Assembly: GCF_036227225.1 (NCBI RefSeq) | Contig: NZ_CP109444.1 | Location: forward strand, 3,081,501-3,145,500 | Length of the DNA: 64,000 bases | Direction: 5' to 3' | Source of the DNA: Streptomyces sp. NBC_01478 | Lineage (GTDB): Bacteria > Actinomycetota > Actinomycetes > Streptomycetales > Streptomycetaceae | Part shown: positions 25,110-27,183 of the stretch, piece by piece | Layout: each line of letters starts with the position of its first letter | How positions within the stretch are numbered: the stretch's first letter is position 1 | Position numbers and translations under genes: made by a program | Notes under the pieces: model-generated | What the model was told of the DNA's origin: nothing | Database searches by the model: none | The model's input: only the letters and a program-made list of their open reading frames with translations

Positions 25110-26693
25110 TCAGGCGGCCCAGGGCCAGTCCGCGTCCCGGGCGGCCTCCAGCAGCGGCACCATTCGGAAGGCCGCGTCCGAGAGGCCGCCGAAGGTGTGC
25201 CGGTTGCCCTTGCCGGACGGGCCGTGGCCTGCCCGGTACCCGGCGAGGTTCCAGGTGTAGACCGGTACGTGGGCCGGGACCTGCTCGGTCGGGTCGCCGT
25301 GCCTGCTGTAGGCGTACTGCTCGTCGGTGATGATCAGCACCCGGTCCTGGCTCCGGTAGTGCGAGCGGACCGCCGAGGTGGTGTCGGTGCCACCCAGGTC
25401 GCCGAAGCGGCCCAGGATCTTGAGCACCGACTCGCCCTTGCCGAACGTCAGGCGCTTGCTCGTGGTGCCGAACTCCACGAGGTCCGCGTCCGCCGCCCGC
25501 AGTGCGAGCGCCGTGCCGAAGATCGCCGCCGCGTCGGCCCGGTTGAGCTCCGAACGGTCGGACAGCCGCGAGAAGAACATCGAACCCGAGCGGTCCACGA
25601 GCACCAGCGTGCGGCCCGGCAGCGCGGGCACGTTGGCCAGCGAGTGACCGAGCGCCCGCTCCAGCGGGTACGACCAGCGCAGCGAGGGCGCGTGCTGGTA
25701 CGCGGCGAGGTACCGGAAGGGGAACTGCCGCGAGCGCGCGACCTCCGCCGGGTCGCTGATCTTCGCCGCGACCCGGGCCGCGACCTCGTCCGAGACGCCG
25801 GCCTCGTCGAAGTTCCGGAGGTTGCGGACGAGCGCCATCGAGCCCATGGACGGAATGACCGCCTCCCAGGCCGCCTTGTCCATCGGGCCCTGCAGCCACC
25901 CGGCCAGCGCCTCCCACGTCATCCCGGCCGCCGCGAGCCGCTCGGCACCGTCGGCCGCCGTGACGACCGCGCGCCGCTGCGCGACCGGCAGTGCCATCAG
26001 CTCGCGGTGCGCGGTCAGCACACGGTTCGACGCGGGCGGTACGGCGGTGTCCGGGTGGTGCCGCCGGTCCAGCGCGTACTGGAACAGCTCGCCCTGCCAC
26101 GCCTTGTCCGGGTCCGGCGCCGCGTGCACCAGGTTGAGGATGTCGCCGAAGCGGTAGCCCTTGGACGCGGTGTCGTACTTCAGCAGCGACGTGCCGCCGT
26201 AGAGACGTCGTACGGCGTCGGCGACACCGCGCTTGACGGGCTTCGGGATGTTGCGGCCGTACAGCGCGGTCCAGTACGCGAGCAGCTCGCCGGGCTCGTC
26301 CGGGCGCCGGAGCACGGAGTCGACGACCTGTCGGTTCGAGGGGCCGTCGGTGGCGCCGGCGTCGAGGCGGGCCTTCACGTACTCGGCGGCGCCCACGACG
26401 GCTGCCGTACGGAGGTTGCCCTCGCCGCGCAGCCAGCCGAGGAGGCCGGCGGTCCAGGCCGGGTCGGTGACGGCGAGTTCGCGCACGAGGGTCGCGAAGC
26501 GGTCGTCACGGTCGGCGCCGGACTCGTAGAAGGTCTGCTGGGAAACGAAGTTGGAGACCGCGAGCAGGAAGAGCTCGGAACGCGCGTCCCGCTCACTGCC
26601 TCGGCCGCCCTGGTAGGTGCGGAGTACTCGGCCCGTGGAGGTGACCCGCGAAGTGGGCTGCGCCTTCGCCGCCTTGGTGTTGAATCGCGCCAT
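25110..26693 (-). CDS. rsr: Ro60/Rsr orthologue (TROVE domain plus vWA)
   Basis: A 527-residue RNA-binding ring protein. Residues ~15-360 are the HEAT-like TROVE domain (GGRGSERDARSELFLL and TAGLLGWLRGEGNLRTAAVV near its start) and ~360-527 the von Willebrand A domain. The vWA metal site (MIDAS) is intact: D-R-S-G-S-M at 367-372, the Thr of GGTDTT and the Asp of IITDEQ. Ro60/Rsr proteins bind misfolded RNAs through the ring and Y RNAs on its outer face. Y-RNA-like elements precede the gene on the same strand. The ATG at 26693 follows GGGGGG within a small inverted repeat. No rtcA/rtcB or PNPase gene is near. Confidence 0.92.
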   Translation of the reverse strand: MARFNTKAAKAQPTSRVTSTGRVLRTYQGGRGSERDARSELFLLAVSNFVSQQTFYESGADRDDRFATLVRELAVTDPAWTAGLLGWLRGEGNLRTAAVVGAAEYVKARLDAGATDGPSNRQVVDSVLRRPDEPGELLAYWTALYGRNIPKPVKRGVADAVRRLYGGTSLLKYDTASKGYRFGDILNLVHAAPDPDKAWQGELFQYALDRRHHPDTAVPPASNRVLTAHRELMALPVAQRRAVVTAADGAERLAAAGMTWEALAGWLQGPMDKAAWEAVIPSMGSMALVRNLRNFDEAGVSDEVAARVAAKISDPAEVARSRQFPFRYLAAYQHAPSLRWSYPLERALGHSLANVPALPGRTLVLVDRSGSMFFSRLSDRSELNRADAAAIFGTALALRAADADLVEFGTTSKRLTFGKGESVLKILGRFGDLGGTDTTSAVRSHYRSQDRVLIITDEQYAYSRHGDPTEQVPAHVPVYTWNLAGYRAGHGPSGKGNRHTFGGLSDAAFRMVPLLEAARDADWPWAA

Positions 26694-26695
26694 GG

Positions 26696-26714
26696 TGAAT
26701 TCCCCCCGAATTCA
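26696..26714 (-). promoter_or_regulatory. Inverted repeat enclosing the rsr ribosome binding site
   Basis: On the minus strand TGAATTC-GGGGG-GAATTCA ends 3 nt before the rsr ATG. The poly-G Shine-Dalgarno sits in the loop and arm of this 7-bp hairpin, so folding could limit initiation. This could link Ro protein level to RNA binding, but it may be fortuitous. Confidence 0.35.
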
Positions 26715-26746
26715 TTGGTGTTCCGGAGGGAGGAGCGGCAAAGGGA

Positions 26747-26900
26747 GAGTGCCCGAGGTCGAAGTCGACTGCGGTGCTTATAAACTGGCGCGTCTTCCGT
26801 TCCGCCACATCGACCTGAGTCGATGACGGGATTCGAACCCGCATGAGGGATTCACCCCCACCAGTTCCCGAAGTATCCGCTGCCTGCGCACCGGGCACCC
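26747..26900 (-). ncRNA. Y-RNA-like RNA B with circularly permuted class II tRNA mimic
   Basis: Reading leftward, GGGTGCCCG (26900-26892) pairs with CGGGCACTC (26755-26747, one G-U) to close a Y stem bearing the GGTGCG and TTCGACCT strands expected for Ro binding. Inside lies a tRNA mimic in permuted order: AACTGGT (26866-26860), a variable-arm hairpin, T arm GCGGG-TTCGAAT-CCCGT (26842-26826), acceptor strand CATCGAC (26825-26819), tetraloop TCAG, acceptor strand GTCGATG (26814-26808), T8/G9, D arm GCG-loop-CGC (26805-26790) and GCCAGTT (26789-26783). AACTGGT and GCCAGTT pair like an anticodon stem. It most resembles tRNA-Leu. No anticodon loop exists; the Y stem replaces it. Ends are estimated from pairing. 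Confidence 0.75.
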
Positions 26901-26913
26901 ACCAAATGCCGAG

Positions 26914-26984
26914 CCTCCCGAGATCAAATCGGCGGCGGCATGGGATTCTTTGGAAGAAGTAGCCGCAGCCCGCGCACCGGGAGG
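26914..26984 (-). ncRNA. Minimal Y-RNA-like element C without tRNA mimic
   Basis: CCTCCCG (26984-26978) pairs with CGGGAGG (26920-26914). Inside are the strands GTGCG and GATTTGATCT, matching the internal-loop strands of elements A and B (consensus GGTGCG and TTGANCT), then a GC-rich upper stem GGCTGCGGC/GCCGCCGCC with one mismatch and a ~22-nt loop starting TACTTC. The 5' strand CCCGGTGCGCGGGCTGCGG aligns with that of B, so it looks like a paralogue lacking the tRNA-like module. It could be an independent RNA or a linker of a longer transcript. Confidence 0.55.
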
Positions 26985-27000
26985 TGCATGAAGTTGTGGT

Positions 27001-27140
27001 GTCCAGAGTTCAAGGCCGGCGGAACCGACGTAGGTGCTCTAACCCCTGAGCTACACCGGCGCGTTGTACCGGTGGCGGGACTCGAACCCGCGGCCGCCCC
27101 ATTATCAGTGGAAGTAGGTCCTGCCTTCGCACCTGGACGT
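27001..27140 (-). ncRNA. Y-RNA-like RNA A with permuted tRNA mimic
   Basis: GTCCAG (27138-27133) pairs with CTGGAC (27006-27001), and AAGGC (27127-27123) with GCCTT (27016-27012). The internal loop GTGCG/GAACT between them recalls the Ro-binding bulge of Y RNAs. GGCGG/CCGCC (27098-27094/27022-27018) continues the stem. The mimic then reads T arm GCGGG-TTCGAGT-CCCGC (27091-27075), acceptor strand CACCGGT (27074-27068), 7-nt loop, acceptor strand GCCGGTG (27060-27054), TA, and D arm GCTC-AGGGGTTA-GAGC (27051-27036). T and D loops keep TTCGA and GG for the tRNA elbow. A promoter just upstream would start transcription near 27140. Ends are estimated. Confidence 0.75.
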
Positions 27141-27145
27141 TCTTC

Positions 27146-27175
27146 ACTCTAGGAGGCGGCCGCGACTCGGGCGAA
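27146..27175 (-). promoter_or_regulatory. Probable promoter of Y RNA A
   Basis: Leftward TTCGCC (27175-27170), 18 bp and TAGAGT (27151-27146). TAGAGT fits TANNNT and would place the start at about 27140-27139, exactly where the closing stem of RNA A begins. The -35 is weak. I find no equally good promoter before elements C and B. Confidence 0.5.
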
Positions 27176-27183
27176 CGAATTAA

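Follow-up and report, generated by a model that had tools for sequence, protein, structure and literature searches.

Three predicted Ro-type small RNAs with different tRNA-like heads lie directly upstream of rsr in Streptomyces sp. NBC_01478

The window analysed here is a stretch of 64,000 nucleotides from Streptomyces sp. NBC_01478 (positions 3,081,501 to 3,145,500 of contig NZ_CP109444.1). It contains the minus-strand gene rsr (25110..26693), which encodes a Ro60-related TROVE protein of 527 aa, and, between this gene and phoX (PF05787, 27184-28848), three RNA-like elements on the minus strand, directly upstream of rsr: A (27138-27001), C (26984-26914) and B (26900-26747). The initial annotation had proposed three stretches with shared 5′ and 3′ strands, each closed by its own stem, ahead of a TROVE gene; the stretches were found at these positions, and the product of the gene downstream of the cluster matches Pfam PF05731 with 48.7 bits. 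The closing stems are GTCCAG/CTGGAC in A (27133-27138 / 27001-27006), CCTCCCG/CGGGAGG in C and GTGCCCG/CGGGCAC in B. In all three elements the 5′ strand consists of the closing stem, followed by GGTGCG, GGC and TACTTC (GGUGCG, GGC and UACUUC in RNA), the common 3′ strand is TTGANCTC, with the version TCGACCTC in the window's B, and each element ends with a UUGAUCUC-like strand followed by the closing stem. Strands like those of a Ro-type internal loop on the closing stem are thus found in A, B and C, and the loop GGUGCG.../UUGAUCU can be regarded as a Ro-docking-type site by analogy with the literature and following the reading of the initial annotation.

Two further signals flank the elements. 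A hexamer TAGAGT, which we take to be a typical Streptomyces -10 box, stands before the first RNA (27146..27151, minus strand) and is a putative promoter; among the loci inspected, a TANNNT-type hexamer is found in relatives before the first RNA at 14 loci with A and before C at 22 loci without A. A palindrome GAATTC-GGGGG-GAATTC extends across the rsr ribosome-binding region (26697..26713, minus strand), is kept in relatives, with the pattern GAATTC-G4 to G7-AATTC at 75 of 81 loci (the window and the best 80 of 246), and is perhaps a translational switch of rsr.

At the gathering threshold, Rfam found no family anywhere in the window, and ARAGORN found zero tRNA genes in it. The folding energies (z-scores of -0.57 for A, -2.47 for C and -1.22 for B) are not convincing alone; the minimum-energy folds of A and B are not better than those of shuffles, and A's anticodon arm is absent from them. 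None of the ten neighbouring reading frames scanned matched an anticodon nuclease by Pfam, five of these ten being without any Pfam family, and rtcB is not among them. RtcB was found in 99 of 101 Streptomyces genomes, and its co-occurrence is therefore uninformative.

For comparison, a set of 81 loci was used, consisting of the window and 80 Streptomyces loci (the best 80 of 246), the rsr orthologues of which have 85-95% identity. The layout recurs at the 80 loci, and the paired strands are conserved, as are the T and D arms; the YrlA-like T and D arms expected from the initial annotation are present in A and B and absent from C. Within 620 nt of rsr, A occurs at 55 of the 81 loci and B at 79, and C was found at all 81 (80 by script and L078 by eye), in full length at 69 and shortened to about 32 nt at 12. 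Given that 26 loci are without A near rsr, two are without B and 12 have a C without the anticodon hairpin, no head is indispensable. Covariation was pronounced in C, with 98.9% of cells paired and five pairs changed on both sides (50 of the 69 full-length sequences), and in the two types of B described below, Leu-type (97.5% of cells paired, 13 such pairs; 27 of 37 sequences) and class-I (98.8%, 10 such pairs; 34 of 40 sequences). For these three, none of 500 shuffles reaches the cells paired or the double-change pairs, and slid controls are far lower; the measure of further pair types is reached in C by 24 of 500 shuffles. In A, 99.8% of cells are paired and the helices are nearly invariant (41 of 55 sequences), and its sole double-change pair was equalled by 483 of 500 shuffles.

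RNA A (27001..27138) is classified as a YrlA-type Y RNA with a complete permuted tRNA. It matches model R3, which includes the window's A, with 177.2 bits, and in a relaxed-threshold Rfam search it matches YrlA (RF02553) with 32.9 bits and an E value of 2.8e-5, below the gathering score of 69; the same search listed no YrlA match to B or C at E<=5, so that the covariance search suggested by the initial annotation recovers A, below the family threshold, and neither of the other two RNAs. On the minus strand, an anticodon arm UUCCA-CUGAUAA-UGGGG with anticodon GAU (27097..27113), called from identity with a tRNA-Ile loop and stem covariation among kin, is followed immediately, on its 3′ side, by a 5-nt variable loop and the T arm GCGGG-TTCGAGT-CCCGC (27075..27091). 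The alignment of relatives also gives the acceptor stem CACCGGT/GCCGGTG, capped by an ACAACGC loop (27054..27074), and, together with tRNA comparison, U8 A9, the D arm GCUC-AGGGGUUA-GAGC and A26 (27035..27053). A and B share the order T arm, acceptor 3′ strand, loop, acceptor 5′ strand, U8 N9, D arm and N26. The arrangement in A is most probably that of a circularly permuted tRNA with its ends between positions 26 and 27, a loop-capped acceptor and an intact anticodon arm, a judgement made jointly on the identity and anatomy of all three RNAs. No single isotype could be assigned to A by edit distance (Arg 1; Met, Lys and Val 2), and A was therefore called generic class I.

As an anticodon-arm mimic, A has a 5-bp stem, a 7-nt loop, U33 and a real tRNA loop, its CUGAUAA being identical to the loop of tRNA-Ile(GAU) in the same genome. 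Because A's own helices barely vary, the case for this arm rests on related RNAs. The 35 kin chosen for this comparison include Glu-type RNAs, another family's arrays, a Gordonia phage and a Rhodococcus plasmid. Among them, paired stem cells make up 97.7% versus 77.0 in shuffles, and 33 cells are changed on both sides versus 9.2; these kin were picked by eye from 61 anchored 20-mers, 26 being dropped as B-slot, Ser-type or other-geometry, which favours pairing. The same kin show no excess over shuffles in double-change pairs (2 vs 2.0) or further pair types (6 vs 6.4), and all five stem pairs are formed in 31 of the 61 distinct anchored 20-mers. Among 82 distinct class-I modules with a perfect 5-bp anticodon stem, the loops are CUCAUAA (23), CUGAUAA (22), CUCUUAA (11), CUGUUAA (8), CUCAUCA (7), CUGCUAA (3), CUGUCAA (2) and six singletons; U36 is present in 79 of them and U36-A37 in 70. 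U36-A37-A38 would be a t6A signal. Beyond these 82, 13 class-I modules have only four anticodon-stem pairs and 51 have none. Real anticodon loops account for 13 of the 21 distinct loops of A and its relatives, against a shuffle mean of 6.0, under a U33-biased picking in which U33 was required and C32 and A38 were rewarded; such loops are not a free sample, and only those of C are consequently free of this bias.

RNA B (26747..26900) is a Y RNA with a permuted tRNA-Leu-like, class II module, supported by covariation and by a match of 173.7 bits (E 1e-38) to model R1, which was built from Leu-type B, includes the window's B and also matches A. Its anticodon-stem 3′ strand AACTGG (26861..26866), which pairs with CCAGTT at 26783-26788, its variable-arm hairpin UGGGGGUGAAUCCCUCAU with U48 as last base (26843..26860), its T arm GCGGG-TTCGAAT-CCCGT (26826..26842) and its loop-capped acceptor stem CATCGAC/GTCGATG (26808..26825) were delimited by covariation, and in 27 relatives all five helix pairs of the variable-arm hairpin have changed on both sides. 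Then follow U8 G9, a D arm GCG-GAACGGAAGA-CGC and G26 (26789..26807), assigned to the tRNA-Leu type by edit distance and genome search, and the ends of the chain lie in the anticodon loop. The D arm is two edits from tRNA-Leu and six from the next isotype, in a comparison with tRNA stretches covering most of the genome's 71 tRNA matches and missing 8 unparsed tRNA records; the five occurrences of its motif in the 12.1-Mb genome are four tRNA-Leu genes and B itself. As a class II mimic, B thus combines a tRNA-Leu D arm, G9, G26, the pair A15-U48 and a variable-arm hairpin. Among 161 distinct parsed modules, 76 have G-C and 85 have A-U as the tertiary pair 15-48, and there is no exception; the count is uncorrected for kinship, and modules without a detected D arm or with the D stem CTC had been dropped from it beforehand.

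The 79 B RNAs comprise 37 of Leu type, 40 of class I and two left untyped by script (L033 and L077), which look class-I-like. A variable-arm hairpin is present in 30 of the 37 Leu-type B RNAs (28 by script, and L006 and L063 by eye, for which the script had chosen another anticodon stem), and in the other seven the variable loop is limited to 6 nt; in 40 of 40 class-I B RNAs, the segment running from UACUUC to the T stem measures no more than 15-18 nt. The loci combining a Leu-type D arm with a 6-nt variable loop are L016, L028, L051, L053, L055, L058 and L064, six of the seven forming one clade in the rsr tree, and they are a possible intermediate between the two types.

RNA C (26914..26984) is a short Y RNA composed of the Ro handle and an anticodon-like stem-loop, called from covariation and a match of 93.6 bits to model R2, which was built from C and includes the window's C. 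Since it is without the permuted T/acceptor/D module, C is counted as a Ro-handle (Y-type) RNA only and not as YrlA. The stem-loop is UUC-UUCCAAA-GAA with the triplet CCA (26946..26958), delimited by the 13/15/17-nt geometry in relatives: of 108 sequences, 103 have after UAC a segment UUC...GAA with a length of 13, 15 or 17 nt, and five have one of 14 nt, the count covering only sequences in which UUC is followed 13-18 nt on by a GAA end and including near-duplicate loci. These three lengths correspond to a 7-nt loop on a stem of 3, 4 or 5 bp. In tests on distinct loops, the 44 different loops of C were compared with the 46 real anticodon loops in the set from the window's genome: 11 C loops are identical to one of these, compared with a column-shuffle mean of 4.5 (p 0.0001), and loops read 1-3 bases off register give 0-1 matches; a test of triplet versus frame in C gave no significant result (p 0.16). 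No tRNA of this genome shares the loop that the window's C presents, UUCCAAA on a 3-bp stem, and the anticodon-loop likeness of C rests on the set of relatives, not on this loop. Short C RNAs (L010, L013, L026, L029, L032, L040, L047, L048, L049, L052, L075 and L078) have little beyond the closing stem and the GGUGCG/UUGAUCU strands. The anticodon arm of A, the Leu-like class II nature of B and the character of C as an anticodon-loop RNA without T and D arms are features absent from the initial annotation.

The presence of the RNAs follows that of rsr. When 101 Streptomyces genomes were searched, R1 and R2 each matched 57 of the 60 with a substantial rsr match; among the other 41, R1 matched two (G066, which has an rsr remnant, and, weakly, G028) and R2 one (G066), searches over 40 genomes being run under stricter filters. 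This co-occurrence supports Ro as the partner of A, B and C and, together with conservation, lends support to the initial view of three paralogous Ro-type RNAs. Divergent second rsr copies (64-72% identity) are present in G100, G016, G013, G039 and G030, and an R2 match without an R1 match lies beside those of G100, G039 and G016.

The heads change rapidly over the rsr tree, which was built by a quick method, has 25 of 81 inner branches unsupported, and omits L041 (long joined match) and L109 (start not found), the intended outgroup L110 having fallen inside. On the best tree, B changes between Leu and class I at least 16 times (with L033 and L077 set to class I by hand and the two loci without B uncounted), the variable arm changes a minimum of 16 times and the presence of A a minimum of 15 times. 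Among eight independent pairs on supported branches, D arm and variable arm go together in 7.9 on average and in opposite directions in none (p 0.008-0.016). For the triplet, the minimum number of changes is 40 among 65 C RNAs and 16 among 43 A RNAs. Between the window and L003 the RNAs are 99% identical, compared with 92-95% for phoX and rsr; between the window and L001 and L002 the identities are 88-95% for phoX/rsr, 75-81% for C and 67-70% for B, and A is absent. This pattern of identities fits an exchange of RNA cassettes by recombination between close relatives.

Related RNAs are also found elsewhere. Model R1 matches 31 of 296 genomes of the class (17 Streptomyces and 14 others), belonging to 13 of 114 genera. 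Tandem arrays with mixed heads (Glu-like or Gln-like, reduced and class-I) occur at L163, L166, L170 and L171, and an rsr-like frame, recognized by eye, follows the first three of them; at L163, in genome G245, four tandem R1 matches precede this frame, so three Y RNAs are not the maximum. The isotype calls in the arrays are weak for Gln-like heads (4-5 edits) and for the Glu-like head of L171 (6), and for L170 and L177 the Glu-like assignment has Ser as a near competitor (3 vs 4 edits). In Streptomyces, Glu-type Y RNAs are found away from rsr at L245-L249, L251, L253 and L255. Three of these RNAs present the Glu anticodon CUC in a CUCUCAA loop; the neighbours of L248 and L253, the two loci scanned, differ. 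Ser-type Y RNAs likewise occur away from rsr at L244, L250, L252, L254 and L259; variable-arm hairpins were seen by eye in those of L252, L254 and L259, a second R1 match adjoins those of L244, L250 and L252, and the RNA of L252 lies between metK and priA, that of L259 before priA.

A relative of Rsr is encoded in 83 of 50,697 phage records. In five of the six actinophage loci opened, tRNA genes lie around or beside the Ro gene, and in three of the six the annotated tRNA directly before Ro overlaps a match to R1 or R3. These are 'tRNA-Ser(gct)' of Alone3 (L265, 2274-2347), 'tRNA-Arg(cct)' of GiJojo (L266, 2269-2343) and 'tRNA-Arg(tct)' of VanLee (L267, 2204-2275), which are likely to be misannotated Y RNAs to judge from the model matches; among the three, only VanLee has a full anticodon arm of 5 bp and 7 nt at fixed spacing. 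The D arm TGGTGTAATTGGCAACACT of the phage Y RNAs at L265 and L266 equals stretch 8-26 of tRNA-Gln(ctg) of the window's genome in every letter.

Some features of these RNAs are known from characterized systems. According to published work, the structure of a bacterial Y RNA, 6CU1, is a circular permutation relative to tRNA (PMC11472068) and is that of Salmonella YrlA, the basal stem of the Y RNA tethers Rsr while the tRNA-like domain binds PNPase in the degradation machine RYPER, and YrlA is modified by DusA and TruB (PMC8394870). A and B resemble YrlA (RF02553) in that they lie beside rsr, have a Ro-type stem and carry their T arm, acceptor and D arm in permuted order. YrlA shows no anticodon hairpin in the section of the Rfam consensus inspected, where its stem before the T arm pairs with the strand after the D arm; the RNAs of the window differ in the intact anticodon arm of A, the class II form of B with its variable arm and the absence of a T/D/acceptor module from C. 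A and B are Y-RNA-like without being Rfam-grade members and would work like YrlA if the analogy holds. The Salmonella RNA-repair operon rsr-yrlBA-rtcBA also has more than one Y RNA adjoining rsr, but in the window the RNAs occupy the interval from phoX to rsr, ahead of the latter. No class-II or anticodon-arm bacterial Y RNA appeared in the titles and abstract openings found, and on that coverage both kinds look like new variants.

The three elements are very likely, as regards both identity and anatomy, small-RNA genes with a Ro handle and different tRNA-derived heads. One promoter before A probably drives all three. The RNAs would share the Ro-docking-type handle, formed by the closing stem and the GGUGCG.../UUGAUCU internal loop, and each would add another head: a whole permuted tRNA in A, a permuted tRNA-Leu-like core with a variable arm in B and an anticodon stem-loop only in C. 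As in the published systems, the handle would bind Rsr, and the tRNA-like module could serve both as a tether for PNPase (RYPER) and as a substrate of tRNA-modifying enzymes. The combination of different tRNA parts with one handle suggests exchangeable tRNA look-alikes. Given that the presented anticodon and core change fast and the handle is constant, the heads may be recognized by tRNA-acting proteins that differ between strains. A tentative proposal, with a less than even chance of being right, is that they act as bait or decoys for such proteins, especially for enzymes of the anticodon loop, with anticodon nucleases as the leading guess; this role would explain the fast change of the heads next to an unchanging handle. 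It is in line, by analogy, with the suggestion that the tRNA-like domain of Salmonella YrlA is a competitive inhibitor of an anticodon nuclease, of which YrlA is not a substrate (PMC7790460), and with the proposal that phage tRNA arrays resist host anticodon nucleases (PMC10264068). The likeness to those arrays lies in the changing anticodon loops and in the actinophage Ro genes found in or beside such arrays at 5 of 6 loci; unlike the phage tRNAs, Y RNAs cannot be charged as tRNA because a loop caps the acceptor, and the available text of PMC10264068 has zero mention of Y RNA, Ro60 or decoy.

The main rival to the decoy proposal is that the tether alone matters and the heads drift. In that case, any tRNA-shaped elbow in A and B would suffice to tether PNPase to Rsr, C would do no more than gate Rsr, isotype and anticodon would be neutral, and the turnover of heads would come from recombination between strains and occasionally with tRNA genes. 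The whole of this account has an appreciable, though minority, probability: it appeals to the known function of bacterial Y RNA in Deinococcus (PMC8394870 and PMC7790460), it agrees with identities at L003 and at L001/L002 that fit cassette exchange between close relatives, and it accommodates a C that can be reduced to a bare handle. Neutral loops, however, would not be expected to retain the 7-nt length, U33 and identity with real anticodon loops, nor would neutral heads be expected to preserve an exact 15-48 tertiary pair through the switches of type.

The elements could also be Rsr-binding sites in the 5′ leader of rsr that autoregulate the gene and are not free RNAs. Their common strand with rsr, the promoter-like hexamer before the first element, the palindrome over the ribosome-binding region at 75 of 81 loci and the short C cut down to a Ro-site hairpin agree with such a leader, but an autoregulatory site needs no full tRNA-like heads, and related RNAs stand away from rsr in other Streptomyces, among them the one between metK and priA (L252), which leaves this account improbable. 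Degenerate tRNA genes or chance tRNA-like sequence, to which the T-loop and D-arm strings equal to tRNA sequences might point, can be practically discounted: the permuted order is retained among relatives with compensatory changes, ARAGORN counts zero tRNAs in the window and the presence of the elements tracks rsr. The arm order and the covariation contradict this last reading, which was rejected.

On a wider scale, the Y RNAs of actinobacterial and phage Ro60 proteins might be evolving libraries of tRNA look-alikes with exchangeable heads, namely a whole tRNA with anticodon arm, a core of Leu, Ser, Glu, Gln or class-I type, or an anticodon loop alone, serving as bait or decoys in conflicts over tRNA-cutting and tRNA-modifying enzymes; taken as a whole, this reading is speculative and rather unlikely. 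With heads that are tRNA-specific, switch and are carried by phages, a role of bacterial Y RNAs beyond the Ro/PNPase tether would become directly testable, and the questions raised would be which tRNA enzyme reads the head and whether an anticodon swap alters the phenotype. If the reading is true, some of the phage 'tRNAs' annotated beside Ro genes would be Y RNAs.
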